Positions 26,901-62,349 of a DNA stretch of 64,000 bases are shown piece after piece (position 1 is the stretch's first letter; each line of letters opens with the position of its first letter). The position numbers were made by a program, and so were the translations under genes. The notes beneath the pieces were generated by a model, which was given only the letters and a program-made list of their open reading frames with translations, ran no database searches and was not told where the DNA came from. The DNA is taken from positions 6,011,910 through 6,075,909 of the forward strand of contig NW_027248277.1 in assembly GCF_041260155.1 (NCBI RefSeq), in the 5' to 3' direction. The DNA comes from Ptychodera flava. Its lineage: Eukaryota > Hemichordata > Enteropneusta > Ptychoderidae.

Positions 26901-27283
26901 TGGTAGCGCTGGCAATTGTAAACTGCACCTTTGGCCAGCTTTGTTCTCCTCTGTAGACTTGCATACACTACACACCGCCATTTACTGGGTGCCGTATGCA
27001 GGCTAATATATGCATTGCGGACACTGGTACACATAACGGGTGCCTGGAACAGTGTCGTGCGTTCAAAGTGCAAGTGCGTTATTACCTTGTTTACGGCACG
27101 ACGAAGCTCTACATGGCTCTCGTTGAATATCCCTTCCTCAGTGATATCTCCGGGTAATTCTCCTTCAAGGGAACTTGATGTGTAGCTTGACAGGCACCCC
27201 CTCGGGAGGCGCCCGACAATACTCGATACCTTCGATGGCAAGATGGTGCGTCGCGCCGCTCGTGTCAAAATACCGAGGGCCAT
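18892..27283 (-). CDS. Mitochondrial acyl-CoA dehydrogenase, ACAD6-like (9 exons, 439 aa)
   Basis: Predicted exons on the minus strand: 27283-27086, 25526-25406, 24556-24427, 23898-23792, 22889-22722, 21769-21596, 20458-20297, 19870-19711 and 18991-18892. All have GT-AG borders and consistent phases. The product is a flavoenzyme that takes two hydrogens from an acyl-CoA and passes electrons to ETF. Residues 1-45 are Arg/Ser-rich with no acidic residues for the first 35, a typical mitochondrial leader. Family marks are LGVSETGSGSDVA (signature 1), KMWITNG, KQRKAFGKSILDN, and QYWGGMGFTDDVLISRYYRD (signature 2). The likely catalytic base is Glu292 in MLQFQVERILMAC, the helix-G position used by long-chain and isovaleryl-CoA dehydrogenases; the medium-chain position is Gly here (GGGADEVM). 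The C-terminus is five lysines. Substrate cannot be told from sequence. Confidence 0.92.
19711..19870 (-). CDS. Acyl-CoA dehydrogenase exon 8: signature 2
   Basis: Acceptor CATTGCAG, donor GTATGT. Encodes LASMAKLKSGRLVRETADAC and YWGGMGFTDDVLISRYYRD. Confidence 0.93.
20297..20458 (-). CDS. Acyl-CoA dehydrogenase exon 7
   Basis: The acceptor CTTCTTCACAG is chosen over an AG 17 bases downstream. It gives VLLPIQDMISETINYTKQ, matching the family spacing between the ERIL helix and the RKAFG motif. Donor GTGAGT. Confidence 0.9.
20705..21095. repeat. Foldback element with a TA core in intron 7-6 of the dehydrogenase gene
   Basis: Outer arms AATCCTTTCACTTCAGTCTG (left) and its inverse near 21050-21075. 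Inner arms AGCACTGTAATTTCCCACGA (about 20790) and its inverse (about 20933-20957). The loop is a GACA-rich stretch and a TA run (20860-20918). The sequence is related to 8232-8450. Confidence 0.75.
21596..21769 (-). CDS. Acyl-CoA dehydrogenase exon 6: carries the candidate catalytic glutamate
   Basis: Acceptor TTCATCAG, donor GTGAGC. Encodes GVTKSREIKKLGMNSSDTAE, EDVRIPQSYLIG and MLQFQVERILMAC with Glu292. A nearer GTAGGT donor would give a wrong phase. Confidence 0.92.
22722..22889 (-). CDS. Acyl-CoA dehydrogenase exon 5
   Basis: Acceptor CTATCCAG, donor GTAAAA. Encodes KKGGDYIINGGKMWITNG and the MICVPLDTK end of the beta domain. Confidence 0.93.
23792..23898 (-). CDS. Acyl-CoA dehydrogenase exon 4: FAD/substrate signature 1
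   Basis: Acceptor TTTCTAG. Two overlapping donors exist: GTAGGT (used here) and GTAACA four bases later. Only the first keeps the frame into exon 5, giving DVASIKTTAV as in the family. Confidence 0.9.
24427..24556 (-). CDS. Acyl-CoA dehydrogenase exon 3
   Basis: Acceptor ACGAACAG, donor GTACTC. Encodes EYGGMGLDFSY through MQADVATPGLT. Confidence 0.93.
25406..25526 (-). CDS. Acyl-CoA dehydrogenase exon 2
   Basis: Acceptor CTTCCTAG, donor GTAGGC. Encodes FIEREISPFVDKWEA and the GDAGFLGINRPK segment of the N-terminal helical domain. Confidence 0.93.
25770..25860. repeat. Partial copy of the GCGCCTCGAAAG repeat family
   Basis: Carries GCGCCTCGAAAGTAAAGGAC followed by TTGCTCAAACTTT, as in the fuller copy at 55973-56297. 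It lies in dehydrogenase intron 1. Confidence 0.5.
27086..27283 (-). CDS. Acyl-CoA dehydrogenase exon 1: mitochondrial leader
   Basis: Starts MALGILTRAARRTILPSK. The donor after AAACAAG is GTAATA. It ends at codon 66 (LRRAVNK), in phase 0. The longer open frame beyond the donor is intron. Confidence 0.85.
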
Positions 27284-27809
27284 CTTGTAGGCTAAATGGG
27301 TCAGCGAATGAGAAACCTGTGTGTAATAAAGGTCATATCAGGTCATAAAAGCAACACCTGTTCACAACAAAAGGCAAGTTGTCATTCTATATTATGGTTG
27401 GAAAATATATGTTGACAGCATGACCTGTATCGGGCAAACTTTATAAGAACCGGAAATAAAGCAGTGTCGTCTACACAGCCGAATATGCAGCCTGAAAATA
27501 TATTATCATTTTTTTCAATAAATGTATTTGATACAACGAGCCATGCATCTGATGTATGTATACAATAAATGTTATTGATATTAATGTTAAAGCTTGTAAA
27601 TGCTAAAGCTTGTAATACAAAAATTGCCTGCGTCATGATCCGAGGTGAAAATCAGACTAGTCAGGATTTGACAGTATCAAGTTGCACATGTAGACATTTC
27701 AGATGCAAATTAAAAAGTGTTTAGAATCTGGTGACACATTCTCTATGTGAAGAAAAAATTGGAAGAGTGATTTTCCTGTACAAAAAGCAACTTTATAGTT
27801 TTGACTCAA

Positions 27810-28784
27810 CGGTTTTTTTCACAGTACCGTTGATACATGTATCGTCAGTGTTCGGATTGATCTGTGAATCTGCATACACGTGACATTTGTAAAGGAACAT
27901 TTGGAAATCTATAATGGAAGTTTGGCTGTAATTTGCCATGCAGCAATATCAATGCACATGACGAAAATCGACGACTGAATTGTATTTCCAGGTGAATGAT
28001 GAAAAAGTAAGATGTATGCACTGTTCTTTTTCGTCTTATTTCTTGTCTACACACTGCCATCCAGAGAACATTAAATCGATCATGAGAGAAACTGCCACTT
28101 AAGGGGTCTCTGTCACACCACACCAGGTCTATGCTGGAGATAAGAAAATTACCATCACAGTGCAGTGTTGGGATTTTTCGGGGGAGCTGATCAGAGAAAG
28201 ATCGTATCCAGGTATAAAAATGGTGAAATATTGGTATAATGAAATAATAATAATGAAGTGTTGCGTTTCTGACCGGACGAAATTTACCGTCCTCGTTTGT
28301 CATGGCAACATGTAATGCCAAGCGCAGCATTAACATCTGTGACCTTTCTGTGTAAGCGAACAACAGCGAACACTCATGTGACCTAAAATGACCTTTTGGA
28401 CGATGAGAGGTTTTAATACTGTGTGATATCCGTCGCAGTTTGTCACTTCACTCCCATATTTACCCACAGTATTACCAAAAACATCGGGACAAGTGAAACT
28501 TACTGTTATATCGCTGGGGAGCCTTGACTTCGCACGCCCGCTTCGGCAGAATGTCGATCACATTATGCAAAATTTACCGCTTGAATCATGATGTAATGTA
28601 TTTATTTATGCAAATCAATTTCATAACAACCTCTCTTATGCAAAGCTATACTTGCATATATATTGCGCAAAAATTAAAGTTTAACCTGTGGATGTCCCTC
28701 TTTGTAGTACATCCATTCATAAACTAGATTTTACTTGATGCTACTCATTCTTTCTCCTTATATATAATCTTCTTTCATCATCAA

Positions 28785-28824
<40 letters not shown>

Positions 28825-29227
28825 CATTCAACTATACTCGCAGATGCACAGAAGTCCTCAGAAAAATTTTGTTCAATTCTGTACTGCCAATCTCCACCAC
28901 ATGTGGGCGACTCTTGCAAAATTTCGCTTCTGCCATCGAAATGAAAATTAATTGTGGCTCGCTTTGAATTTTAAATATTCGTAAATTCCTAATTTTGGAT
29001 TCACTCCGATCCAGGTAGCCCCTCATTTGGACCCTAATTTTGAGGTCACAGAGAATTTAGTTACAGCAAACTGTGAACAAAATATTTTTCAAGCGCATGA
29101 CAGCGCTGTGATTGGAAGATAGCAAACGCCGGCAATGGTATGCTAGGAATATAAGCACTGGGATATGCCTGTTGTAAAAACTGGCCTAGACTAGCGTACA
29201 AGAACGAAGCGAATGCCGTTTGACAGA
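27810..29227. other. Spacer between the two dehydrogenase copies, no gene
   Basis: No supported exon. A TC microsatellite lies at 28788-28821. The minus-strand open frame at 28363-27845 has no family features. Confidence 0.5.
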
Positions 29228-29450
29228 TTAACCCTTTGAGTGCTGTAATTGTTCCCTCCAAAATTTTAGTGCAAAATTTTTACCGATTTTTATGAATTTT
29301 TCTGTAATTTTTGATGATTTCGGACCTAATAAATATGACATTTCATTGGTTACAGTTTGTTATCAAAATTTTGACAAAAATTCGAAAAAAATGGACTGGA
29401 GTATATTTTCTAAAGGAGACAAAAATTGTCTTTGGCGCTCAAAGGGTTAA
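29228..29450. mobile_element. TTAA-ended MITE (TTAACCCTTTGAG family), copy 1
   Basis: Bounded by TTAA at 29228-29231 and 29447-29450. Ends are inverted repeats of TTAACCCTTTGAG; subterminal motifs are AAAATTTTAGTGCAAAATTT and GACAAAAATTGTC. TTAA target sites are typical of piggyBac-type elements. Other copies: 41196-41415 and 52182-52404. Confidence 0.8.
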
Positions 29451-29679
29451 ACATATCTAAGAACAAAATAAACTTTAAAAAATAGGGAGATAATTGGACA
29501 GACAGCTTCAACTTTCAAAAGTGCTTCTTCTCATCATTTGCCATTTATCCAGCCAACAACTTTTTGGACATTTCAAATGCTTGCAACGTCAGTGGTGTGA
29601 TAGATTGCAGAAAAGTAAACTTACCGTTGGGCGATGGTTTAATTAGAAAAAGCTGAACACAAAACGTTTATGATTTTAA

Positions 29680-32600
29680 GTATAAAGAGATCAGACATTC
29701 TTGACATTTTATATTTCCAACGAGCTTTTCTTATCATAAAATGTTCAAAAAATACCGGCATTATAAACCGAAAACTTTACAACATAAGAATATTGCCTCA
29801 AACATCATCATACAGAATTCTTCTTGACACAAGTGCATGTATAGTGACTGGTATTCTCTCTGTATCATGTTCAGTATGAGAACTGGTCGGTCAATATACG
29901 TCTGGATATGGAAGTCAGACATAAAAAATCCTTGCTGAGTAGATGTATCAAGTCTTCTGATATTCATCACCAATGTCAAAGCGTTTGCAACCTAACGTAA
30001 CCTAACCTTAAACATAAGGTTGGATAGTGCAAAGGGCAAGGATAGTTCGAAAGAATATTTTTAATTCTTAATTTTGGCAGAATCCCATTAATATACCATA
30101 AGCTTGGATACTAGTAACTTTTATGTAACGTTTTGTAAGTCCGAGCCGGGTTCAAAGGATTAATATATACATTTTCAAAGTTGTCATTTAATGTCACTTA
30201 TAACAATCGAGGTACCGTTGATATCATTGAACCGATAAATGCGTTGCCATGTTTACAGAATAATGCGTACTCTTTTTCTAAATTATGGGCACCTGCAATA
30301 TAAGTTGCATCACATGATGGTTTAGTTAAAGTTTGAGGTCACAGATTTCAAAGGAAGAAATCAAACATGGAGACATCACTTCTTCTTCTTCTTCATCGGT
30401 GTAGGTAATGATCCCATATACTTCGAGATAATCGTCAACATTACCTCGTCTGCTCCCCCTCCGATTGACATTAACCTTTTGTGGAGGGACCGTGGTTTAT
30501 GCTTAATAGTCGACAGCTCAGTCACGACAGATTGCAAGGACATTTCTGATGACGTAGACGTACGTTATATTTATTCTTTATCGCTCTAAACTAATGTTCG
30601 GTATATAGTTCTTATTTTATACCAGGGTACATAATGATTCTGGAGGGTTGAGGAGTGTACTTAGTCGAGTCATAAGCAATGTTACCTACTAGCCACATCT
30701 GAACCAGTTCCAGTTTCACTGACTCCGAGACAAGCAACCATCTCACCTTTGATGCTAGGTTCTAGAAACAGCTTCTTCAATTCATGTGAACCAAACCTAG
30801 AAATGACGTATGATTTTTGGAGATATATCAGCACTGATATTTACTAACAAGAAATAACTGTTGCGTTCGATAAAGGCTGTTTCTTGTCAAAAGGGTCAAT
30901 TCCAATGTTTTTTTCGCTGTACTTGAGAAAGAAGTGTTGTTCTTCGTTCAGTCTTGGTTATGCTAAGTGGCTGATATGTCCCGAAGATTATACTCAAAGA
31001 TTGTTAAACTTTTTTAATTATTTGAAGGCAATCGCAAATTTTGATAAAAATTACGCCTGTCAGAGTTGTCTAATACTGTTTGATGTTTGTCTCAGTTAAC
31101 CCTAGATTTGCTCTATGTCTGGGATTATAAACATCAAAACGAATAAATTGAAAGATTTAACTTAGTTCAGCAGACTGTCAGGCTAAGTTGTTGGCTGGTG
31201 CTTGGATCGCGGGGTGAACGCCTTGGCCGGCCAGTAGCTGCTCTAGCGGGACAAGCTATGCGACTGGGAGCCGGTCTGAATTAACCCTTGTCCTGCGAAG
31301 TTCTGTCACCATCAGCTCAATTTACTTAAAACCAGTGAGGTATGACATACACCATACATTGCATTTAACAAAGACTTGAACATTGATTTTCGAAGGCCAA
31401 GAAAACATAACGTAAAATGATTTAAACTGACATGATGTGCCATTGACTCACTGATCACAGGCTAAATAGATGAAAATACGTATAGGTTTTAGATTCATAC
31501 GACTTTTTACGGACTTGGAAGGTCAGGAAGAGCCAGACATGAAAGGAATGATTTTGTTTGAAGCTGTTCTGCCGCTCTGTTTAATGTTTGTGCACAACAA
31601 ATTCCGAATTCTTTGTTTGTGGATGGTACAATGTGCTTAATGGTTATTCCGTTGCATTTAAAATGAGAATTCACACTTGTATCTGTCTAGGCCTTGTGTT
31701 GCTATGTCTGCCTGCATACCGATTGCTGAAGGCAATCCGCCACAGCTGCATGGTTCCGCCGAGTTCTTCTGTGAATGCGACAGCGTAGGAGAAATCTAAA
31801 CCCATCCCACCATACTCTGCTCGTAAATTCAAAAATGTTTATTGGGTGCTACACATTTGTGTTATTGAAGAGCAGAAAAGTAAGGTATAAACTCAGCAAT
31901 ACATACACGGACAAAAGAATGAAAAAGGTCCATACGCATTGTGTTTAGGCTTGCTCGTGAAAATAGAAGCGGTCGCATTGTGCGTTAAGTATCCGAACTT
32001 CTGATTTGGTACTAATTCTGTTGAAAGATAAATAACCAATTTAACTAATTAAGCTAATGTTAATAGCTGTACGTTACCAAAGAATACAACAGATTGAGGC
32101 AGAATCCTCCTTGTAGATATGTTAAGCTCCCAAAATATATTGGTTATTTGCTGGCGAGTGATCTATAGCTCATTCCAACATAAACATAGATATTTCAAAA
32201 TCTACCTTTTATCGGAATGAAAAGTCATTTTCATCGAGCTAAACAGTAAATGTCAGCTGTTCTACATTTTCATTATCAGTAGCTTCGTGGTTATGTTCCC
32301 ATAAATTGTAAAACTTTCTGTGGTTTCTTATAAATCTATTTATGATCAAAAGGGAAAGCAATAGTTTTTGGTATCTTTGAGGAGCAAAGTGCGAGAAAAA
32401 AACCGTGAAATTTCTTTCTTGACATCTAAATTAACTGAAGATTTTTTACAAAATTTTCGGAGTCTGACAAACTGTTTTCATGCCTCTGTAGATAAAAGTT
32501 TCCTTTAGCTATCATGTGTATTCAAACAATAGAATTACAAGGCTAAAGTACTTGTACGTTGCACACCTTTTGGTCTATTGATGCCAAGGAATCATTTTCT

Positions 32601-33287
32601 TGAAAAGCTGATGGGCTGGAAATCTCTTAGCAGCCTCCCACTTGTCCACAAAGGGGCTAATTTCCCTTTCAATAAACAAGAAATCTTGAAGACAATTGAC
32701 TTAGTTTTAAACCAAACACACACATCTCCGGGTAATTCTCCCTCCAGGGAACTTGACGTGTAGCCAGACAGGCACCTCCTCGGGAGGCACCCGACAATAC
32801 TCGATACCTTTGATGGCAAAATGTTGCGTCGCGCCGCCCGTGTCAAAATACGGAGGGCCATCTTGTATATGGGAAACCTCTGGTCAATAAAGGTCATATC
32901 AGGGCAAGTCCAACACTTGTTCACAGCGTGACCTGTATCAGGCAAACTTTATAAGAACCCAAAATAGAACAGTGTCGTCTACACTGCCGAATATGCTGCC
33001 TGTAAATATAGTATCATTTTTTTTTCAATAATGTATTTGATATATCACAACGAGCCATGCATCTGATGTATGTATACAATAAATGTTATTGATAATAAAG
33101 CTTGTTATACGAAAATTGCCTGCGTCATGATCAGTGGTAAAAATCAGACTATCTAGTCAGGATTTTACAGTATCAAGTTGCACAAATATTTAGACGCAAG
33201 TTTTAAAAATTGTGTTTAGCAACTAGTGACACATGCTGTTTTTCAGAATAAAATAAGGTGGCTGTTTTTCTACAAAAGCAACTTAAT
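29680..33287. repeat. Degraded copy of the dehydrogenase segmental duplication
   Basis: Aligns by eye with 18060-27800 in the same orientation, including introns and the upstream flank (GAGCCATGCATCTGATGTAT is shared at about 33053 and 27538). It is 3.6 kb instead of 9.7 kb: the part from intron 4 to intron 8 and large intron pieces are gone. The right end meets a transposon at 33288. Confidence 0.85.
30380..32861 (-). pseudogene. Acyl-CoA dehydrogenase pseudogene (exons 1-4 and 9 only)
   Basis: Exon relics on the minus strand: exon 1 at 32861 to about 32725, cut after GELPGD; exon 2 at 32675-32569 with an 11-base deletion after AAGAAAATG and its acceptor AG lost; exon 3 at 31816 to about 31690 with a net 4-base insertion after CTCGGCGGA and its donor GT changed to AT; exon 4 at about 30797-30691, still open and with intact splice sites; exon 9 at 30480-30381, intact. 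Exons 5-8 are missing, which removes the candidate catalytic glutamate. It cannot make a working enzyme. Exon 4 has few amino-acid changes from the parent, so decay is fairly recent. Confidence 0.9.
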
Positions 33288-41400: not shown

Positions 41401-43469
41401 AACTCAAAGGGTTAAGTCAATAATATTTAAGGGTCAGTTGACCAAATGGCAATCTGTGTTTTTGATGAGGGTATCCACCAGTACGAAATTTAAAGGTTAC
41501 AAGCATTCATGACCTGTGATGCAATGGATTTTTTGAAAATCAGTATCATAGTTAGAATATTCAGTGTAAATAAAAAGCATACTCTTTGTATGAAAGTAAA
41601 AGGCAAATGTTTTATTCAGTTTTGTCTATCTGATTTCTGAAATTTTATATCATGAATACATTCCTTGTTGTTCCCTTAAAACCATTCATTGAGTACCAAA
41701 AGTATTTGTTGCAAATTTTGGCTAGGGGGGTCAGCATTTCATAATTTGTACGTACTAATTTTTTCAAACCAACTTTATAAATTCACTGACAGATACAAAA
41801 TGCCAAGGAAGGCACAGTTGTGGTTATTTCAATCTTAAACTTATGTTTGACTGGTAGTTGAATGTGTAAATGACTGTCCTCATTTTTAGTCTAAGTTAAA
41901 TGTGTATTGTTTTTCCAGGGTGAAGAATTAATTGAAAAGCTTGGATGTCAGGTGTTTATCCTTGTCTCAGAAGATGGAATCTATTCCAATTACATGGGAA
42001 GTGAAGTCTTCTTGAAAGACTTCCGTTCATCCGGACTGAAAATAAAGGAACAGGATGTTGTCAGAAGAAAGGAAAACAGCAGGATACAATCTGGTCCTTT
42101 GATTGCAGATTCCAAGGAAGGTGATGAAAGTCAAGAAATGGAATCTCATGGAACAGAAATTGCTGCGAGGAGAGACAACCGTAGGCGTATGAAAGTCAAA
42201 CCTGGAGAATCTTGTAAGAATGACAAAGATAAGATACAGAAAGTAATTACAGAGTGGTATGCTGGTAAACCAAATTTATGTCAGAGTTGTGGACTTTCAT
42301 TCAAGAATCCAAAGCGATTGGAAGATCATCAAATGAAGGCAACTTGCTCCGGACGCAAATGTCGCTTTTGTGGGAAGATGTTTCCATTCAAGGACTGGAA
42401 AGATCATATGGTTGACAATCACTTGGAAAAGATGAAGATCTATGAGTGCCGACACTGCAAGAAGCAATTACTGCTCTCTTGTAATTATACAAGTCATATG
42501 AGGATGCATAGAAGAGAAGGTAACCTCGCAGGGAAAAAGTTACAGAAACAGAAATTAGAGTTGCATAGAAGAGAAGGTAACCTCGCAGGGAAAAAGTTAC
42601 AGAAACAGAAATTAGAGTCGGTAGATGATCTTGAGAATCACAGAGTGAGAATACAGAAGATCTTCAAAGAATTTTATGACAGGAAACCGAATTTATGTGA
42701 AAGGTGTGGATTCTCGTTCAAATATCCTAATGGATTAGAAGTTCATCAGCAGAATGCATCATGCTCCGAGAAGAAGTGCAAGTTTTGTGGGATGAGTTTT
42801 CTGCACAAAGACTGGCAACAACATCTGCTTGATAGTCATCTGGCAGAGGTGAGAATCTATGAATGTAAGATCTGTCAAAAGCAGTTCTTGCGATATATTG
42901 ACTTGAAAATGCATGTTGAGATGCACACGGCAGAGACGACCCCATATGATTGTGATATCTGTGGATGTACCTTAAAAAACAAGAAGAGTCTGGCAACTCA
43001 TAAACTTTTACATCAGGGCAAGGAATTTAAGTGCGACTACTGTGATTATAAGACTGTCAGGAAAAGTGAACTGACAAAACACGTACACCGACACACAGAA
43101 CGTGGGAAATTTGACTGTAAGGAGTGTGGTAAGCATCTAGCCAATGCTCACAGTCTGCGCCAACACTTTCAGCGATTCCACACCAACTTCAAATATCAGT
43201 GCAGTGATTGTGAGAAAGAGTTTTCTATAATTTATGAATTGCAGCATCATGTGGAACGACACCATAAGGGCGACAACAATCTTCACATCTGTGAAAAATG
43301 TAAGAAGGGATTTCATACAAAAAAACTCTTGAATACCCATGTGAGAGTGGTTCACAGTGAGGACCGCATAAAGTGTCATTTTTGCGGGAAAGAGTATAGA
43401 CATCACTCTAGACTGAAACAACATCTGATAGTTCATAGCAAGACCAAGGTTACAAGTGTCACAAGTTGA
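35386..43469 (+). CDS. C2H2 zinc-finger protein (2 exons predicted, 546 aa)
   Basis: Exon 2 (41919-43469) is certain; exon 1 (35386-35475) is a prediction from a good start context, a GTATGT donor and matching phase 0. The protein is probably a nuclear DNA-binding regulator. After the unrecognised N-terminal region (residues 1-80, with GEELIEKLGCQVFILVSEDG and FLKDFRSSGLK) comes a basic linker. About twelve zinc fingers then follow from residue 151 to the end. The first six form two repeated three-finger modules, each opening with a C2HC-like finger (KPNLCQSCG, KPNLCERCG), followed by FCGKMF/FCGMSF and CKKQ/CQKQF fingers. Six more follow, from YDCDICGC to IKCHFCGKEY. Linkers mostly lack the canonical TGEKP. 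A 57 bp exact duplication lies between the modules. Targets are unknown. Confidence 0.8.
35550..35679. repeat. Long near-perfect hairpin in zinc-finger intron 1
   Basis: Arms of about 52 bases: CACAGTCCCTCGTGGGCTAT... at 35550-35602 and its near-exact inverse at 35628-35679. They differ at only a few positions and surround a short loop that itself holds GAGCGAG/CTCGCT. No flanking direct repeat was found. Confidence 0.85.
35690..35807. mobile_element. Foldback element with 10 bp target duplication, number 2
   Basis: Inner arms of about 35 bases (AGTAGCTCGAGGTTTTGCC... at 35723-35757, its inverse at 35763-35796) and outer CTGCAGTACAGT/ACTGTACTGCAG arms, with an unpaired stretch on the left. 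Flanked by the exact direct repeat ATGAGATGCT (35680-35689 and 35808-35817). Confidence 0.8.
35818..37309. other. Zinc-finger intron 1, no exon recognised
   Basis: No supported exon. Short GC-richer patches with local inverted motifs (for example TCTGGCAGAGACCCTG near 36775 against CAGGGTCTGG near 36848) may be relics of foldback elements. Confidence 0.4.
37310..37945. mobile_element. Palindromic element with an internal minisatellite
   Basis: Ends are inverted repeats of about 65 bases: GGTAAACCTTCAACTGGATG at the left, and its inverse ending GTTGAAGGTTTACTGC near 37932. Between them lie about seven copies of a 60-70 bp unit containing TAGGCCTGGGTCATCTTCCA. The left ones are inverted relative to the right ones, so the whole unit is roughly symmetric around 37530. 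Confidence 0.8.
38465..38530 (+). repeat. tRNA-derived SINE head, copy 1
   Basis: CGCTAGGCGACTGATGCCGT followed by box B GGGTTCGAACCCGAT and TGAAAAC. It matches the copy at 49508-49575. Confidence 0.55.
38968..39432. mobile_element. TTAA-ended inverted-repeat element (AGCCCCACTAGCTG family), copy 1
   Basis: TTAA at 38968-38971 and 39429-39432. Terminal inverted repeats are AGCCCCACTAGCTGTAAC and the inverse of ATCCCCACTGGCTGTAAC. A related copy starts exactly at the stop codon of the deaminase-like gene (62346). Confidence 0.8.
39787..40573. mobile_element. Inverted-repeat element with repeated GTGGACACG motifs
   Basis: The left end GGCCTGTTCAGATTGACGAC resembles the inverse of the right end (TTGTTCACATTGGCAACCC). 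Several copies of CAGTGTGGACACG-like phrases next to GCGTCGGCC repeats occur at both ends. GC-rich against its surroundings. No transposase is recognised. Confidence 0.55.
41196..41415. mobile_element. TTAA-ended MITE (TTAACCCTTTGAG family), copy 2
   Basis: TTAA at 41196-41199 and 41412-41415, the right end reading CTCAAAGGGTTAA. The interior matches copies 1 and 3 (TGGTCCAAAATTATCAAAAA). It lies in zinc-finger intron 1, 500 bases before exon 2. Confidence 0.8.
41919..43469 (+). CDS. Zinc-finger gene, large last exon
   Basis: Preceded by a TTTTTCCAG acceptor. The open frame has no usable ATG at its start, which shows that an upstream exon exists. It ends with TGA at 43467-43469. It holds all the zinc fingers and most of the N-terminal region. 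Confidence 0.92.
   Translation, partial: GEELIEKLGCQVFILVSEDGIYSNYMGSEVFLKDFRSSGLKIKEQDVVRRKENSRIQSGPLIADSKEGDESQEMESHGTEIAARRDNRRRMKVKPGESCKNDKDKIQKVITEWYAGKPNLCQSCGLSFKNPKRLEDHQMKATCSGRKCRFCGKMFPFKDWKDHMVDNHLEKMKIYECRHCKKQLLLSCNYTSHMRMHRREGNLAGKKLQKQKLELHRREGNLAGKKLQKQKLESVDDLENHRVRIQKIFKEFYDRKPNLCERCGFSFKYPNGLEVHQQNASCSEKKCKFCGMSFLHKDWQQHLLDSHLAEVRIYECKICQKQFLRYIDLKMHVEMHTAETTPYDCDICGCTLKNKKSLATHKLLHQGKEFKCDYCDYKTVRKSELTKHVHRHTERGKFDCKECGKHLANAHSLRQHFQRFHTNFKYQCSDCEKEFSIIYELQHHVERHHKGDNNLHICEKCKKGFHTKKLLNTHVRVVHSEDRIKCHFCGKEYRHHSRLKQHLIVHSKTKVTSVTS
42507..42620 (+). repeat. Exact 57 bp tandem duplication in the coding sequence
   Basis: Units at 42507-42563 and 42564-42620 encode HRREGNLAGKKLQKQKLE twice and differ by one base at the end (TTG against TCG). 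It keeps the frame and lengthens the linker between the two finger modules. Confidence 0.95.
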
Positions 43470-52493: not shown

Positions 52494-52785
52494 ATGGGCC
52501 GTTTCGTGAACGCACTGGTTCTCATCTTACCAGTAATTGCCCAGTGTTCGTATTTGTCTCAAAGAGAAGAACTGTTGGCTGAGGACGCGTCGTTCGCCAC
52601 TGGAAGCCAGATACAACTCGAGGGTAAAGAATGGGCGGTGAACGATGTCTTGATGAGTTTCAAGGGTAAGGAAATCGAGAAGGGAGTCAACACCAGCGTC
52701 TATCCGCCCAACATGCATTTCTTTCAGGCAAAGCCACTAATCGAACAAAGTGAGGTATTCAAAATCATTAAACTGATGCCAAAAG
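52494..52785 (+). CDS. Deaminase-like exon 1: signal peptide and N-terminal domain
   Basis: ATG in a strong context (ACCATGG). Encodes [20 protein letters not shown] and runs to IIKLMPK; donor GTGAGT. Confidence 0.92.
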
Positions 52786-55700
52786 GTGAGTTATGTTACA
52801 ACACTGATCTATCCAATAATTGTCGCTTGAATTCTTGACATTTTGAGGTCAACAATTGTACGCTACACGATCCAAAGACATGGTTTGACGTCATGACATA
52901 ATTTCTTGTCTTTTAAATGAAGCTTACCACCAACCCAGTATTACTTCATGACCCCAACCGTTAGAAAAAGGTGTTACTTTTTCCGACAAATTTTAAGGTA
53001 ATCCTAGATTATTTCAAGAATAACAATAACCTAAAAATTTAAAAAATTCAAGCGAACTTACATTCAGCGTCTTTCAGGATGTCATCTAATATGCAAAAAT
53101 AACAGTTTGGCTATAATCTCACCCAATACAGGTTGCATTCACATTCAATTATTTTTCGAATTTATGACATTGTTACTTATGTTCTCGAAGTTCGCCTTGT
53201 ATTAAACAGCGGGCATTTACTGACCGCCGACTGTGTACATTAAGCTTATGTCGCTTGTGTTAAAGGCGCGTTTTACAGTGTGACAGAGTGACACATAAGA
53301 ATCCTCGTGAAAAACGGTATATCGGATACAATTTCTATTCAATGAACCCTATCAAGAAAGAAATTACCACCCAATCTAGAAATATTTTATGTAAGGCAGA
53401 TAACCGCCCCCAATGCGTGTCATGGCATGTGCGGTCAACAAATATTTGACGCGCTGACAGTCGACAGTTGAACATGCACGTATTTTTTGAGGAGTCGATC
53501 AATAGATCTTGTTGACCGCACATGCCACAGGCGTAGTTTACATTTTTAGCGGTTATGTGATTTCAATTGAAATATTTGTAGGTCACTTTCACTGAATAAA
53601 AACCGTATCTCCAATGTACTGTTTCGCTTGAGATTTCGTTTGTGTCATATTGTCCTATTTTAAAGCACGCCAGTCAAGATTTATTACTTTGGCTGTCGCA
53701 ATCAATAAAGTCAAGAGTTGTTTCGTCGACCATATAGCATTGGCAGTTAACAATGAAAACGGTTGCCGGATAAAGAGTGTTATCAGGCGAATTTTGAGTA
53801 GAAGTGTATTGTGTCTTTTGTGAGAGGGCGGCGCTGGGCAAATATTTTTTGTTATCGAAGTGCGGGAAAGTTTATTCCTTTGTGTTAAGTGAAAATTTGA
53901 ATGTAACCCATATTTTCGAGGATTTGTGAGAAAGGTTTAGCTAGACAGTATCGCACGAAGGAAGAAAGTTGTGGGGATAATTTTAGACAACAAAGGAGGC
54001 ATCTTTCGCGATGGGTGAATATGAATGATACGGGAAATATTATTGGTTGAAAAATTTTCGAATAAAGGCGAGAAGGCAGACGATGATACAAAGTTGCTTA
54101 TTTCACAGCAGGAAAATCCTTTGTTTGGAAAATTCAAACGTAGGACTTAGTACGTCAAACGTTGATACTTCGTTGGAAGTTAAAAGGAGGGGGTCGTAGG
54201 AATTGAGCATGCGCGACTTTCTGAATTACAAACAATGAATTGCATACATGATTCAGATGCATCACGTCAACGTAGCTGCAACATTTAAATTTTTTGATGA
54301 ACGAACAGAACGGAAAACATGGTTTCTTTCATCAATCGCCAACGTACATCAGATACATTTTTTGTGTCGGTCATATGGGTCCCCGTACGTATGGGTCCCT
54401 TGCTAGAACATATCATTGCAAATTATACAAATGTATCTTCATGTCCTCATATTGCAATGTTTATAGTTGTCATGGTTTTATTATATTGCTTTTTTGCTTT
54501 GTTTTTCCTAACCCCTAGGAGCTAGTTTACATCTTCACGCCGACTCAATCACTGATATAGACTGGCTGGTCAAGAACGTAACATACCGCCCTCACTGCTA
54601 TATGTGTTACACCAAAAATGGCGGGATGCTGTCGTTCCGTTTCAGCGAAGAAGCACCACCAGACGACGAGCAATGTTCTTGGAATTTAGTTGCTTCTGAA
54701 CGAGCAGCCGCTGCAAATGCCAGTTTGTTTGATGAAGAGTAAGGTCTATGTAATTTTATTTTACAGGTCTGTACTGAAATCATTTCAAACGTTTGTAGAA
54801 GGTTGAAAGGTGTTCTCTAATTGTCCGGGGGAAATTTTGAGAGAGATTGTGTCTCATTGCATTGAAATTGAACGTCTAGAACCTCGAGCTCTCCGTAGAT
54901 TTGCAATAATAGTCAAAACTAATGCACGTATCGGTGTTTTCCACCAAGAAAGAACAGACATCAGGGCTGTACCCTATCGTCCTGGTACCTTAAGTTTAAA
55001 AGACTTGAAAGCTCTATAATTATTATTTTCTTTGATGTTATTAAGAAGGTAAACTTAGAGTACCAACGAATCAACAAAAAGAAGACATTTACGTTCTTCA
55101 ATTTCATTACCCAATAATAACAAAAACAAAACAACAACAACAACAGATACAACGAGATTGCCGTCCTCCCTTTGCCTCAAGAAAAATGGTGTAGACGTCG
55201 CTAGAAGTAGGTTTTTGTGGGGAGCATGCCGTACACCGTAACCAAGGAGATGTCTTTCACTCGCCAAAATTAAAACACTACAACTACCATTATCTGTCAT
55301 TGTCAAATATTCCCCTAACCCGACGGGGAACTGTGCGTATCGTATAGATCAAATGCCCCTATACCGGGATACAATTTACGATCAACTTCTCCTGGATTTG
55401 AACGATTTGAATTACGCGCTTAACACGCGTATATATGTGCCAGCCATATTTGTGTTGCAACTCGAAAATTATTTTTTAGTTTTTAAATCTCTCAGTGGTG
55501 CGACAGCACTTTTACAAAAGTTGTACATGTATTTGATTTCAAATCGTCTTACCAAAAATGCAAACAAAGATAATGGGGCTTTAATATCATTACTTTTGCG
55601 AATGTACACATTTGACGCAAATCAGGTGAAATATTGCTCATCATAATAAATCCATCAGCATTACCGTCAAAGTCGAACTTCATTCAAGTTAATGCACATG

Positions 55701-57196
55701 TATGAAACGTGTTGAGCGTACATCGCTGATGGTTAGAAAACGCCCTCTGTGGCCATACTTCGATAAGCACTTTTACATAAGTTGCATTTGATTTCAAACC
55801 ATCTTATCAAAATAATGCAAAAAATATAAACTTTAAGTGAATTTGGCTTTAACATCAGTACTTTTGCAAATGTTAATGAATCCCATTAGCATCGCTGTCA
55901 AAAACATTTTACTTCATTCAAGTGAATGCACCATATATACGAAGCTTAGTCTGTGAGCGACTTACAAAATCACATTGAGGAGGTTTGCGCCTCGAAAATG
56001 AAAGACCTAAACTTTTGCTCAAACTTTACAAAAGCAAACTTTCAACCATTCTCTTTCTAAATCATGAATAAAAATTGAGGATCACACTGCCAATTTTATA
56101 GCAACAAATTGTCGAATATTTAGCACTATATTTACTGTGTAAACTGTATGGTGGAAAATACGATTCCCGATTTTACAAAACTAAGCCGTTGAACTCCATA
56201 AGATTCAAAATAATCCCCAACAAGTGGTAGCCAAAATAATACTGTAAAAATTAGAGAGTTCGAACATCTTTCCAAGAGGCGCAGTCTACTTTAAAGGAAA
56301 AGCAATAGCTATTTCTAACTCGTATCTACAAAGTATATTGAAAAAAAAAACGAAGTCATAGTCTATTCTGCATGATGAATCGTGTAAAATAAGCCATATC
56401 ATTGTTGACACACTAACTCTGCTAGTCAGGACTAAATTCAGATGTCATCAGATATTGGACAATTTCTACTCACAGGCCGTGTCGAAAAGCTCTAAATTAA
56501 AACAACAGTTTGTTAGAAGAGCAAAGAATTCTATTCTTAAAATGCAAAGAATATTGTGAAAACAATCTGTTTATGGAGCTGTAAAGTCGTTAAAAATCGA
56601 GAAGTTTTGAATTCCCCACTCAACACAACACCTTGTCAAATCTATGTCGTCTTTCTCAACTAGGTTGTACAGACAAATGACCTTAGTAGTGGATGACCCA
56701 CAAACAGCGTACACAGATCAGAACAACATTTGGACACATTTTCTGGATTACTTTGCGATCAATAGTGGACTAATGAATTTTGCCGATGTCGTAGAAGATC
56801 GCTACTACGAAGGTTTGCGACAGTTCCACGAAGACGGGGTTCAATTTGTCGAAGTCCGGTCCCATTTGACACCTGTAAGTCAAAGAGTGCTTGTGTGTTC
56901 GTTTGGTTGTGATTCAGATGCAACTGGAATGGACGGTGAGAAAGAAATTTCTCCAAAAGATATCAATCACACCATCGACATATGCTGAGAAGCACCATTT
57001 TCAAGCAATTTAGTGTTGATCAAACAGAGGAAACTGATCCTTGTCATATGGCATTGTTAATTTGCATAATTGGTGAAGCGATTGCTTCTACATTTCCTGA
57101 TATTGTCAGTTTCTAAACGCCTTATTGTATTCCGGTAATTTTGCTACGTGAAACCCAAATAATGTGCTAACCTGACTAATTTCTCGCCTGTTCTTA

Positions 57197-57260
<64 letters not shown>

Positions 57261-60200
57261 GGGCAGGGGAGGGAAATAGACCACACATACAAACAAGAAT
57301 GGTGTTCTTGCGCATACTGTCTCGGCACTACATCAATCTAGTACTCACAAAGTATTGTGCCGCTCCTGAGAGTATATACCGGTAATTTGTCTGATTAAAC
57401 ATTCCCCAATGTCTACACTGGTTCATCCCATACGTGTGTCACTTAAGAATAAAGAGTTCTGCATTTTTATTACACTGACAAAGCTATACGAGCTGAATGG
57501 TACAACACATGATGAAGAATACTTAATCAAAACATTGGAAGCCGCCAACCGAGCTTTTCTGGCAGACCACGCCGACTCTATGGGCTTCAAAGTCATCACT
57601 GGTCAAGTGAGGTAGGCATCCAGGATTGAAATGTGTATTCAGTGAATTACATAATACATACTGATTTACCATCAGTTATCTCATGACGGTTCAAAAAAGG
57701 TGAACCAATCAAAATGAAATTCAAAGTCACAAAAAATACAGATATAAAAGCTCACGGTATAACCAGTATCTAACCATATAGCATATTGTTTAATTTGGAT
57801 GGGTATTATGACAGGGTTTTCACTAGGATATCTGACTGGGCAGAATTTGAAAGTGCAGGGGGAGAACACGCGAGAGGCTGAGGGGTAAAGTGTTACAGGG
57901 GCTTTCGCTTATCTTGCATGGAAATTTTTAAGATATTGATGTGTGCAATGGTGCAGTCTGGTGCAATCTGAGAGGTGTTTTTAATTTTTTTTACTAAGTG
58001 AAACTGTTAGAACACCCCAAGGGGGAGAGCACGAGAGGGGGTTATTGAATCCTGTCTTGTGTTTTAAATTTTCACAATTTACAGAAGTCAAATAGTCTCC
58101 TTTAGATAGTGCCTTTGCCATTGAGATATTGCAACAGAAATCCTGAAATATTGCTTGGGTCAGAAAAGGGAAGGAAAACATTGAGTGCACCGAGGTGTAA
58201 AGTAGACCTATGTTGTGTAAAGTGCTGGAAAAAAAACATAAGAATTTTTTACTTCTGTCTATTATGACAATTTTCTTTCCTCAGGCCATTACAGAATCAT
58301 TTTTTTTCTTCTATTTCACCTGGTGACATTTTTTCCCTCAAAATCCTCCATACCCCCCCCCCAGAAATCAAATGGTTCTCCCCTTACTAGTAGTAAAGGG
58401 TAGTAAAGGGTAGTAGGTCGCAGTGCGCTGGAGCGCCCGCAGACTGAATCTTTCAGTCTAATAAATAAATAGATATATAGATACATGAATACATACACAC
58501 ATACATGCATACATACACACATACATTCATACATAGATACATAGATATATACATACATGACCATCATACATACATACATACATACATACATATACATACA
58601 TACATACATACATACATACATACATTCATACATACATACATACATACATACATACATACATACATACATACATACATACATACATACAATGCATATATTA
58701 TTATGCATGTACATACCTACATATTGGCATAAAGAAGGCATCCCTCTTGACAAATACAGTCATTTCGAATTTGATTGATAGTTTTTTGGCACATCACTGA
58801 GTCGCCGAAAGGTACCTAAATAGCATGTATCTTAGCCTAACTCGATGATATCTGATATCAAATTCTAGAGCTTTTACCAAACCGGATATGGAAAACAGGG
58901 TACGGCTCTCCATTGACCTCAGAAGGAAGTACCCAGATTTCGTCAGTGGCTTTGACATAGATGGACATGAAAACAAACCGAATCCGCTACTTTACTTCTG
59001 GGAAGAGCTTCAGATACCGTCGCATGAGGGCGTCGATTTACCATACTACCTACATGCCAGCGAAACAAGTGAGTGGACGTATTGTGTATATACGAAAATA
59101 TTTTTTCCAAAGAGAGTATTCAACTTAATATAGGATTTTAGACATATCTTCTTGAGAGCTAAAGTGAGGGGGTCGTCGGAACTGCGCATGTGCGACTTCT
59201 CTTGTTTGCAAACGATGTATTTTTATGCACGATATCTACCTGCATATCGTCGACATAGCTGTAACTTTAAAAGTTCATTATATGCATTATGACAAACTTT
59301 CATCAATAATCGACTTACCTTGGAAACAGTGTTTATGTTGTTCGTATAGCTCCCATATGACTTCTGTGTGCCGTTTTTGTGAGTATTATGTGGTATGCGT
59401 ATTTTTACGTTTTTTTTCGCTTGCCAAGGTCTTTTGTCGGAGCAGCTTGATGCTCGTTAGTTAGTGGGAGACTGTAGTCGAATAGTGCGGATGGAGGATT
59501 CGATGGAAACCGGGGAGGGATGGTTTTAACCAAATAGTTTTTTTTCGGGGGATCTAATTTTACAATCAATGGTTTTTGGTCAAACATTGTTGCATACAAT
59601 TACGGTAAAAATCATCAGAATTGACCGAAAATTTATGTACTCCACATTTTATGGGCTTCAAAATGAGCCACCACAAGTGGTATATCAGAAAGCTATTGTA
59701 ACAAATTTGAGAGTCCGAATATCTGTCAGCGAGGCGTATTCTAACTTAAAGGGAACAAATTCAAACATGAAGTGAACTAAATGTGTCATTTACCAAAGAT
59801 GGATCGATGATGTTCTTCTTTATTTCGCAAAATTCTCGTCACCCAGACAACCGATAAATGGCCAATTGATAAACGAAAATAACATCTTTCTACCTCTTGT
59901 AAGAATTTTTTCTAATTTTCGTAAAAAATACATTTAAAAATCTAATCAACGGATTAACAAACTAAAAAAACAACGTAAAGTCAATGTTAAAAAAAGAAAA
60001 TTACACAAGTTTTCAGTAAAATTTTTTGAAAGCCCCGATGGTACCCCTCGTCTGTATCTGTCGTCTTAAACGGTATTACTTTGTGAGGAAGCGCAAATAG
60101 ACATGTCGTAAGTAATCTTCGCATTTTGTGAAGAGAGAAATATGATAACCCAAATGAAGACAGAGAAACATTAACAGGAAGGTGCGTTTTCTAATTGACA

Positions 60201-61761
60201 CAATGAATATAAAATATGAGAAAACATCAGAATCTCTATCTAACTACTTTTTACGTCCATTATGCCCTACAGACTGGCAGGGCACATTTGCGGATGAAAA
60301 TCTTTTCGACGCACTACTTCTGAACGCCGTACGAATTGGACATGCCTATGCAGCTGTAAAGCACCCAGTTGTGTTAAAGCAAATTAGAGATCGCGATATT
60401 CCCATTGAGATAAGCCCGATATCTGGTCAGGTTTGTATTTATGTAAACAGGTATTTCTTTACATACATACATAGATACATAGATACATACATAGATACAT
60501 ACATACTATACATACATACATACATACATACATACATACATACATACATACATACATACATACATACATACATACATACATACATACATACATACATACA
60601 TACATACATACATACATACATACATACATACATACATACATACATACATACATACACATACATAGATACATACATACATACATACATACATACATACATA
60701 CATACATTACATACACACATACATACATACATACATACATACATACATACATACATACATACATACATACATACATACATACATACATACATACATACAT
60801 ACATACATACATACATACATACATACATACATACATACATACATACATACATACATACATACATACATACATACATACATACATACATACATACATACAT
60901 ACATACATACATACATACATACATACTCACATACATACATACATACATACATACATACATACATACATACATACATACATACATGCATGCATGCATACAT
61001 ACATACATACATACATACATACATACATACATACATACATACATACATACATACATACATACGAAATAACAAGGAAACATGCAGCTGTGTAAGATTTCTT
61101 GTCGCTTGACTATATCTAGCGACTCATTTCTTAGTCCAAGCCAATCATCTGAAAAACAATGCTGTATATTTAACTTATCTAAAGGTGCTGATGCATTTTG
61201 CTGACATCCGTAACCATCCTGGAGCTTACCTACTATCACGTGGCTATCCCGTGGTTGTGACTTCAGACAACAGAGCATGCTGGGGAGCGAGTCCCGCATC
61301 ACATGACTACTACGAGATGTTCATGGGTATCGCCAGTGCTAAAGCCGATCTACGCTTATTGAAACAGCTGACAAGGGATTCGATCAAGTAAGTTGCTGTG
61401 TTGACGTAATGTGCTCGTCGGTGTACACGATTACTGGCAGACATAGACCCTTCGTTGATAGGTGGAATGGTAGAGATACAAAAAAAAGATAAACGGAAAG
61501 AATTTTGCTTCTTCGAAAACAGAACAGAATACTTCATATTCCATGTTTACTTATTTGTCTATTTTTACTCGATTTTGTGCCTTCATATCTATTTATATGT
61601 ATCCATTTACATGTATTATCCTTTTCCCTATTTTTGTGTCAATCCATCTAATCATTTATCTAAATCTACTTCTTCTCTTTTTCCATTTATATATTCACCT
61701 TTCTATTTATCAATTGGCCTATGAATCGATTGTCCGTCTTTCTACATATCTATCTACCCAC

Positions 61762-61829
<68 letters not shown>

Positions 61830-61970
61830 CCGTCTATTTATCTATCCATCCATCCATCCATCCATCCATCCATCCATCCATCCATCCATCCATCAATCCA
61901 TCTATCTATCTATCTATCGATCGATCTATCGATCTATCTATCTATCTATCGATCTATCTATCTATCTATC

Positions 61971-62042
<72 letters not shown>

Positions 62043-62349
62043 AATCTATCTATCGATTGATCAATGATCGATCGATCTACTTTCTCTATACAGATACAGC
62101 AGTCTGAGTGATGTCCAAAAAGTAAAATGTACCAATATTTGGACTTCAAAATGGAACGATTTTCTGGATCAAGTCTTGGAGATGTACAATGTAACCAACT
62201 GGGAAGATTACATACCAGCTGAATCGACACAAACGACGCGTACACCCGTTGTTCGAGATGCTGCTTCGTCAATTTCACTGAGTTTCACATTTGTGGTTCT
62301 CATGTCCGTTTTCCTGTGTTTGCGACACGTACGACTAGTCAGTGCTTAA
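52494..62349 (+). CDS. ADGF/ADA2-like (CECR1-type) adenosine deaminase family protein (8 exons, 555 aa)
   Basis: Predicted exons 52494-52785, 54519-54738, 56664-56874, 57484-57611, 58869-59068, 60273-60430, 61185-61387 and 62094-62349; all GT-AG, phases consistent, stop TAA. Family members are secreted zinc enzymes that turn adenosine into inosine and can act as growth factors. Residues 1-18 are a signal peptide. The N-terminal ADGF segment is followed by MPKGASLHLH (His102, His104: zinc), [13 protein letters not shown] (His346, Glu349), RIGHA (His374), EISPISGQ and TSDNRACWG (Asp431). Differences from the usual motifs are Ser for Gly in HAGE, SGQ for SNQ, and Asn432-Arg433 for Asp-Pro in SSDDP. 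In adenosine deaminase that second Asp binds purine N7, so activity or substrate may be changed. Zinc ligands and the catalytic Glu remain. Residues 530-546 are hydrophobic, suggesting a membrane or GPI anchor, which is unusual for ADA2. Confidence 0.92.
53417..53529. repeat. Inverted repeat in deaminase-like intron 1
   Basis: TGGCATGTGCGGTCAACAA near 53419 and its exact inverse near 53507-53526, with a 70-base loop. Confidence 0.85.
54187..54290 (+). repeat. Intron repeat shared with 59163-59275
   Basis: GAGGGGGTCGTAGGAATTGA, GCATGCGCGACTT and ACGTAGCTGCAACATTTAAA. The intron 5 copy carries GTCGTCGGAACTGCGCATGT and CATAGCTGTAACTTTAAAA in the same order, so two introns hold copies of one dispersed unit. 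Confidence 0.65.
54519..54738 (+). CDS. Deaminase-like exon 2: zinc HxH motif and cysteine-rich insert
   Basis: Acceptor ACCCCTAG, donor GTAAGG. Encodes [30 protein letters not shown] and a charged QCSW region at the place of the putative receptor-binding insert of ADGFs. Confidence 0.92.
55973..56297. mobile_element. GCGCCTC-ended inverted-repeat element in deaminase-like intron 2
   Basis: The left end GGTTTGCGCCTCGAAAATGA is inverse to the right end AAGAGGCGCAGTCTACTTT. Related copies: 62875-63175, a right half at about 59600-59755, and a fragment at 25770-25860. Confidence 0.65.
56664..56874 (+). CDS. Deaminase-like exon 3
   Basis: Acceptor TCAACTAG, donor GTAAGT. Encodes [20 protein letters not shown] and [10 protein letters not shown]. 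Confidence 0.92.
57200..57257. repeat. GA microsatellite in deaminase-like intron 3
   Basis: Uninterrupted dinucleotide run. Confidence 0.95.
57484..57611 (+). CDS. Deaminase-like exon 4
   Basis: Acceptor TGACAAAG has a weak pyrimidine tract; donor GTAGGC. Encodes [14 protein letters not shown] and GFKVITGQV, in the right phase for both neighbours. Confidence 0.85.
58485..58690. repeat. ACAT tetranucleotide microsatellite in deaminase-like intron 4
   Basis: Imperfect at the left, nearly pure at the right. Thr-Tyr-Ile-His frames through it are artefacts. Confidence 0.95.
58869..59068 (+). CDS. Deaminase-like exon 5: HASE motif
   Basis: Acceptor AATTCTAG, donor GTGAGT. Encodes [20 protein letters not shown] and [10 protein letters not shown]. 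Ser replaces the usual Gly of HAGE. Confidence 0.92.
59163..59275 (+). repeat. Intron 5 copy of the 54187-54290 repeat
   Basis: Matches in order and orientation with several substitutions and short indels. Confidence 0.65.
60273..60430 (+). CDS. Deaminase-like exon 6: RIGHA and PISGQ motifs
   Basis: Acceptor CCCTACAG, donor GTTTGT. Encodes [32 protein letters not shown] and IEISPISGQ. The open frame continuing into the ACAT repeat after it is intron. Confidence 0.92.
60457..61062. repeat. 600 bp ACAT microsatellite in deaminase-like intron 6
   Basis: About 150 tetranucleotide copies with rare interruptions (ATAG, ACAC, GCAT). It lies 27 bases after the exon 6 donor and 120 bases before the exon 7 acceptor. 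Long open frames across it on both strands are repeat artefacts. Confidence 0.97.
61185..61387 (+). CDS. Deaminase-like exon 7: zinc-binding Asp
   Basis: Acceptor TCTAAAG, donor GTAAGT. Encodes [40 protein letters not shown] and [10 protein letters not shown]. Confidence 0.92.
61764..62075. repeat. TC, ATCC and ATCT microsatellite cluster in deaminase-like intron 7
   Basis: TC run at 61764-61826, ATCC repeats at about 61840-61895, ATCT repeats with ATCG variants to about 62075. The pyrimidine-rich array runs up to within 20 bases of the exon 8 acceptor. Confidence 0.95.
62094..62349 (+). CDS. Deaminase-like exon 8: C-terminus with hydrophobic tail
   Basis: Acceptor CTCTATACAG, directly after an ATCT microsatellite. 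Encodes [32 protein letters not shown], a Thr-rich spacer, the hydrophobic run [16 protein letters not shown] and the end RHVRLVSA. Confidence 0.92.

Follow-up and report, generated by a model that had tools for sequence, protein, structure and literature searches.

The window analysed here is a 64,000-nucleotide stretch of the genome of the hemichordate Ptychodera flava (assembly GCF_041260155.1, contig NW_027248277.1, positions 6,011,910 to 6,075,909, forward strand; the coordinates below are those of the window). It carries a gene for a protein of the adenosine deaminase-related growth factor (ADGF)/ADA2 family, in which the six zinc and catalytic residues are all unchanged and eight residues of the substrate pocket differ from the usual ones (in human ADA2 numbering, D115A, E208L, V325D, G358S, G385A, N412G, D442N, and P443R). 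We put at about even the chance that this protein is a purine deaminase with altered substrate preference or affinity. The gene looks intact: it has eight exons between 52494 and 62349 on the plus strand, encoding 555 codons plus a stop in a 1668-nt frame without internal stops, and all seven introns are of the GT-AG type with consistent phases. The original prediction, made from the letters of this DNA, was assigned to 58869-61387; this span begins exactly at the start of exon 5 and ends exactly at the end of exon 7, but the HxH motif of the zinc site lies in exon 2, outside it. The motifs HASET, PISGQ, and SDNRACWG named there were found in the sequence at the places given. It was silent on G385A, D115A, E208L, V325D, and the hydrophobic tail, and displayed P443R without discussing it. 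The features of the gene are as follows.

52494 to 52785, plus strand: exon 1, with the ATG, a probable signal peptide, A_deaminase_N (PF08451, residues 18-92), and the start of MPKG.
54519 to 54738, plus strand: exon 2, with the HxH zinc histidines H102 and H104, A105 for human D115, and D106.
54527 to 54544, plus strand: LHLHAD (HxH), in exon 2.
56664 to 56874, plus strand: exon 3, with W194 kept (human W204) and L198 in place of human E208.
57484 to 57611, plus strand: exon 4.
58869 to 59068, plus strand: exon 5, with the GFDIDGHE loop (D315 for V325, G316 kept) and HASET.
59053 to 59067, plus strand: HASET, with the zinc histidine H346, S348 for G358, and the catalytic glutamate E349.
60273 to 60430, plus strand: exon 6, with RIGHA (catalytic histidine H374, A375 for G385) and PISGQ (G402 for N412).
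60332 to 60346, plus strand: RIGHA.
60416 to 60430, plus strand: PISGQ.
60460 to 61062, plus strand: (TACA)n array of about 151 copies, inside intron 6.
61185 to 61387, plus strand: exon 7, with SDNRACWG (zinc aspartate D431, N432 for D442, R433 for P443).
61260 to 61286, plus strand: TSDNRACWG.
62094 to 62349, plus strand: exon 8, with the end of the ADGF domain, the C-terminal tail, and the stop codon.
62200 to 62346, plus strand: C-terminal tail (residues 507-555), 49 residues with a hydrophobic segment.

Two further arrays were noted in the introns, an ATAC array of 57 copies in intron 4 (58461-58688) and a TATC array of 77 copies in intron 7 (61747-62054).

By profile and structure comparison the protein is a clear member of the animal-type ADGF/ADA2 family. 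The NCBIfam model for adenosine deaminase-related growth factor (TIGR01431) was matched over its whole length (1-479 of 479) at 550.4 bits (cut-off 315), and the model for plain adenosine deaminase (TIGR01430) gave 78.9 bits, under its cut-off of 216.55. The Pfam domains A_deaminase_N (PF08451, 4.8e-16) and A_deaminase (PF00962, 4.6e-21) were both above their cut-offs. The nearest solved structure was human ADA2 (1.3e-139), aligned over residues 24-498 with short indels only, followed by the Helix pomatia AMP deaminase (4.9e-117) and a chimera of ADGF and AMP deaminase with a segment labelled AGSA (PDB 9nti; 2.4e-113). Identity to human ADA2 was 44.5% (211 of 474 aligned residues), and that between the Helix and human proteins was 40.9% (194/474). 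C127 and C150 of the inserted domain were invariant across the four aligned proteins (ours and the three structures), and we take them to be a disulfide pair. The N terminus is hydrophobic (mean hydropathy 1.8 over residues 4-22), as a secretory signal would be. The product is likely to be secretory and to carry a zinc-dependent deaminase site.

When the protein is aligned with the three structures, the zinc ligands H102, H104, H346, and D431 and the catalytic residues E349 and H374 are unchanged (six of six), W194 is kept, and G316 is as in human ADA2. The number of a residue in human ADA2 equals that in the window protein plus 10 at all the sites named, except around C150; the human residue numbers agree with this offset. 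An intact zinc site with changed substrate-site residues in an ADGF/ADA2 protein, as originally proposed, was therefore borne out. In the mechanism that we favour, the protein would enter the secretory pathway and probably stay attached to the cell surface through the hydrophobic segment of its C-terminal tail; zinc would be bound through the four ligands, and water would be activated by E349 and H374 as in ADA2. Because these ADA2-like zinc and water-activating residues are present, the chemistry of deamination has most likely been retained. In and around the nucleoside pocket, residues would have been replaced as a set, comprising all eight changes. We infer catalysis, altered substrate, membrane tethering, and an extracellular role from sequence.

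Reading noise is an unlikely source of the eight changes, because they are spread over five exons of the open frame and three of them (E208L, N412G, and P443R) each require two or more base substitutions relative to the usual residue; every altered codon is explained by one or two base changes. E208 and V325 presumably have pocket roles in human ADA2. For the tallies, 61 sequences were compared, namely 58 distinct bacterial homologues (loci L001-L061, 61 matching frames) and the three animal-type structures. The bacterial set was divided into 32 ADGF-like sequences (E < 1e-40) and 26 more distant ones; 30 loci were from the 121 matching genomes out of 395, 30 from the 53 matching genomes out of 246, and three were others. 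Full-length ADGF-like genes occur among them (L001-L003, L005-L008, and L035-L061), and such genes were found in 53 of the 246 genomes searched in the family of a Chryseobacterium genome. Column 358 was Gly in 60 of the 61 sequences and Ala in one, the 9nti chimera. Column 385, the glycine next to the catalytic histidine, was Gly in 61/61, and column 412, the asparagine of PxSN, was Asn in 61/61, so that the A375 and G402 that replace them are without precedent in this set. Outside the set, Ser stands at column 412 in three (1a4l, 2ada, and 9vlv) of the five solved adenosine deaminases among the matches listed, so that Asn is not universal at this column; none of the five has Gly. At column 442, Asp was found in all 35 ADGFs (3/3 animal structures and 32/32 bacterial ADGF-like sequences); the 26 distant sequences had Asp in 19, Ser in five, and Asn in two (Asp 54, Ser 5, and Asn 2 overall). 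Column 208 was acidic in 35/35 ADGFs. Column 115 was Asp in the three animal structures and Ser in 32/32 bacterial ADGF-like frames.

The canonical aspartate that contacts purine N7 is absent, with N432 in its place. In ADA1, Asp19 contacts the 5' and 3' hydroxyls, Gly184 contacts N3, Glu217 contacts N1 and N6, and Asp296 contacts N7 (PMC12388660). D442 of human ADA2 is the equivalent of Asp296, so that the statement of the original prediction that the second Asp of the DD pair contacts N7 is right. Computed alanine scans of adenosine deaminase (ADA) are described in which H17, G184, D295, and D296 mattered most (PMC6239307). Eight of the 26 distant bacterial relatives are single-domain ADA1-type sequences, in which the zinc Asp is followed by Asn-Arg (two), Ser-Arg (five), or Asp-Pro (one). 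NTDNR was also present in four plasmid-record relatives, of Streptomyces, Arthrobacter, Ilyobacter, and Photobacterium, and in L066 and L067. The plasmid search was performed with an NTDNR query (103 records), the four were examined among the matches listed, and L066 and L067 were picked for their long frames. In total, 8 of the 14 bacterial ADA1-type relatives examined have Asn-Arg at the N7 site; this sample is not random and gives no estimate of frequency, because the plasmid query itself carried NTDNR. One of the 14, L028, scored 322.5 bits on the equivalog model of adenosine deaminase, whose cut-off is 216.55, and the Ilyobacter NTDNR gene is annotated as add. As counter-examples, Asp-Asp was found in the five solved adenosine deaminases among the matches listed (6n91, 6n9m, 1a4l, 2ada, and 9vlv).

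The eight ADA1-type sequences resemble the window protein at further positions: Leu at the E208 column in 8/8 (cf. L198), Asp two residues past HxH in 7/8 (cf. D106), Arg at the R433 column in 7/8, and, at the N432 column, Asn in 2/8 and Ser in 5/8. From the shared Leu, the Asp after HxH, and Asn-Arg, the ADA2-type pocket can be described as partly ADA1-like; this form does not extend to Ala385 and Gly412, for which there is no such precedent.

A second precedent is the ATP deaminase TaqCad1, which has Asn at the N7 site and Gly at the Asp19 site, and whose N549D mutant was unreactive with ATP (PMC12669630). It converts ATP to ITP upon activation by cyclic oligoadenylate, its adenosine activity is weak, and changing both residues to Asp raised that activity without rescuing it (same source). 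The Asn at the N7 site of TaqCad1 is therefore used, and not just tolerated, according to that account. In the window protein N432 matches the Asn found in Cad1 at the ADA D296 position. As for the D19-to-Gly feature of Cad1, the ADA2-type D115 is Ala in the window protein, yet D106 occupies the ADA1 D19 column. A CARF domain is absent, PF08451 and PF00962 being the only Pfam domains at E ≤0.001. A Cad1-type relative was also considered among the long bacterial frames and dropped, the two examined (L066 and L067) being single-domain ADA1-type sequences with long upstream frames.

With respect to HASET, the C-terminal part of PDB 9nti, the segment labelled AGSA, has HAAET and keeps SDDP, SNQ, and RVGHG. 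We presume this segment to be Aplysia ADGF, unmutated at HAAET. Because HAAET occurs in the AGSA segment and Asn-Arg in the bacterial ADA1-type relatives, neither HASET nor SDN is enough by itself to indicate that activity is lost, and a loss of activity read from either motif was rejected. Aplysia ADGF is reported to deaminate adenosine, and AMP hardly (PMC10358891, Table 2). The suggestion of altered substrate or weak activity, drawn originally from these motifs, consequently holds in part: it agrees with the impairment reported for a D296N mutant (below), but the Asn-Arg pair is natural in bacterial ADA1-type relatives and the HASET-like departure occurs in the AGSA segment.

General relaxation was examined in columns that were constant in the 32 bacterial ADGF-like frames and in two of the three animal structures, with the third left out in each round. 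Although about as similar to human ADA2 as the Helix protein is, the window protein departed at 17/71, 15/71, and 20/75 of the invariant columns, against 4/71, 4/71, and 8/75 for the left-out animal protein (Fisher p = 0.0037, 0.012, and 0.020); the three rounds are not independent, because the Helix protein and the chimera share the sequence of the first half. Within the C-terminal half, the departures were 15/50, 13/50, and 14/49, against 3, 3, and 2 for the left-out protein. These counts indicate a general excess of change that spared the metal and catalytic residues, which fits a functional shift, with relaxed constraint being possible.

Several points weigh against an altered substrate preference as the explanation. 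The lost columns were not clustered near the contact residues (within one residue or less, 4/14 lost against 12/53 kept, p = 0.73), so that general relaxation is possible. Ala385 and Gly412 are unprecedented among the 61 sequences, and the invariant glycine beside the catalytic histidine may be needed. For the D296N mutant of mouse ADA, a severe impairment of both binding and catalysis is described (Sideraki 1996, as cited in PMC12669630). Finally, the Helix AMP deaminase kept D115, the acid at 208, and D442, and therefore a substrate shift in an ADGF does not need the present pattern.

The tail bears on where the protein would act. Its hydrophobic segment (62266-62322) is 19 residues long, has the maximum mean Kyte-Doolittle hydropathy of the protein (2.13), and is followed by RHVRLVSA and the stop. 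The alignments stop before the tail (at window residue 498 for the human and chimera chains and at 506 for Helix). The three crystallised chains extend just 26, 22, and 15 residues beyond the alignment, tags possibly included, and the crystallised constructs are therefore without a comparable tail. The tail may fairly be taken to suggest membrane tethering, by a single-pass segment or a glycosylphosphatidylinositol (GPI) anchor. ADGFs are usually soluble, and a membrane-anchored ADGF was not found in the titles and abstract starts among the matches listed in a search of open-licence literature with GPI and transmembrane terms. A narrower reading, which is a subset of that of altered preference, is a membrane-tethered animal ecto-deaminase derived from ADA2 that would act on ATP, ADP, AMP, or another modified purine, and not on adenosine. 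A nucleotide or modified-purine substrate would follow from the loss of the ribose-end acids together with the gain of Asn-Arg on the N7 side. We regard this narrower reading as a rather slim prospect, and equally slim the accompanying proposal that it would represent an evolutionary switch separate from that of the Helix AMP deaminase, sharing one key residue with the Cad1 ATP deaminase.

The strongest alternative, to which we would allow perhaps half the weight given to altered preference, is that the protein is a pseudoenzyme that kept its fold, its zinc site, and the surfaces for dimer formation and receptor binding, turns over purines inefficiently, and would act by binding, as a growth factor or an adenosine sink. 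The loss of the N7 aspartate, of the ribose-side acids, and of two residues constant in all 61 sequences (beside the catalytic histidine and in PxSN) would be expected of such a protein, as would the spread of the surplus departures through the protein and not the pocket alone; the impairment of mouse ADA D296N points the same way (cited in PMC12669630), and a catalysis-independent role of human ADA2 has been reported (cited in PMC3055890). Against this, none of the six zinc and catalytic residues is altered, which is unexpected without catalytic constraint, and Asn-Arg stands at the N7 site in more than half of the non-randomly sampled ADA1-type relatives (8/14). Moreover, the growth-factor action of molluscan ADGF is stated to require enzymatic activity (PMC9598359).

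Somewhat less probable in our judgement is an ordinary adenosine deaminase, in which the replacements would be neutral or mutually compensating and adenosine still preferred. The HAAET of the AGSA segment, with Aplysia ADGF being adenosine-specific in the data cited above, the Ser at the D115 column in every one of the 32 distinct bacterial ADGF-like frames, and the resemblance to ADA1 at three pocket positions (Asp, Leu, and Asn-Arg) are all consistent with it, and adenosine deamination by a bacterial ADGF homologue has been reported (Skaldin, cited in PMC10358891). It accounts poorly for eight changes occurring jointly in the pocket motifs, two of them unprecedented among the 61 sequences, and for the excess of departures at invariant columns. 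An artefact (wrongly chosen exons, a misassembly, or a pseudogene in decay) is highly improbable: the 600-bp TACA array in intron 6, like those in introns 4 and 7, is difficult for assembly, but the 555 codons are free of stops with consistent phases and GT-AG at seven introns, the alignment to human ADA2 over residues 24-498 has short indels only, the altered codons, which lie in five exons, each call for one or two base changes, and there is no second copy within the window with which to confuse the gene. A second ADGF copy as the source of a mosaic was likewise rejected, tblastn over the window (E ≤1) having returned the eight exons of the gene itself and one match at E 0.36.

Other observations concern the rest of the window and the bacterial sequences. 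Six diverged direct-repeat pairs (blocks of 72-150 nt, 79-92% alike, 5.5-7.3 kb apart) lie at 23777-33151, and a frame near them (19596-20093, minus strand) matches the C-terminal domain of acyl-CoA dehydrogenase (7.5e-11); together they possibly represent a tandemly duplicated gene. A 524-residue stop-to-stop frame at 41895-43466 (plus strand) contains C2H2 zinc fingers. At 3478-4400 (minus strand), weak matches to QRICH1 (1.7e-05) and DUF3504 (0.0042), both under the Pfam cut-offs, were found; this region may be a transposon-derived recombinase. Eighteen bacterial proteins (frames of 470-608 residues; L009-L014, L016, L017, L019-L021, L024, L025, L027, L029, L030, L032, and L034) have HxHF(T/S), HAGEL, and LTSN or LVSN and are by motif neither ADGF nor ADA1. 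Among viral contigs, the exon 7 query gave 5 pattern matches and the alignment query 89, and no relative was confirmed.

Extracellular adenosine is controlled by ADGFs, most of which owe their annotation as adenosine deaminases to nothing but similarity, and the Helix enzyme shows that such annotation can be in error (PMC10358891). A protein in which so much of the pocket is replaced and the residues of the chemistry are kept would be a natural test of which residues set the purine preference of ADA2, and a test too of whether growth-factor action needs catalysis. The comparison also corrects a shortcut, since a deaminase without the second Asp of the DD pair need not, for that reason alone, be inactive. 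The combination of replacements with the tail was not found described in the open-licence literature searched.

Compared with known systems, the window protein shares with human ADA2 (CECR1; 3lgd/3lgg) the N-terminal and ADA domains, the zinc and catalytic residues, W204, and G326, at 44.5% identity; it differs at the eight pocket sites and in carrying 49 residues, with a hydrophobic segment, past the aligned part. With the Helix pomatia AMP deaminase (9nte) it has the ADGF architecture and zinc site in common. The Helix enzyme is an ADGF with a shifted substrate, and its authors expect further cases (PMC10358891); it keeps HAGET, RIGHG, SNQ, SDDP, and D115 and is still acidic at the E208 column, so that its switch rests on other residues. 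The AGSA segment of 9nti likewise departs from HAGET, with HAAET, but, unlike the window protein, keeps SDDP, SNQ, and RVGHG. The bacterial ADA1-type sequences with NTDNR or NTDSR share the Asn/Ser-Arg past the zinc Asp, the Asp after HxH, and the Leu at the E208 column; they are single-domain proteins, not ADGFs, they keep HAGE (one HGGE), GHG, and SN, and they are known here from sequence alone. TaqCad1 likewise has Asn where the N7 Asp would stand, and a small residue close to the ribose-side Asp (PMC12669630), but it is bacterial, CRISPR-linked, CARF-fused, and activated by cyclic oligoadenylate, whereas the window protein is without CARF and has D106 at the D19 column.

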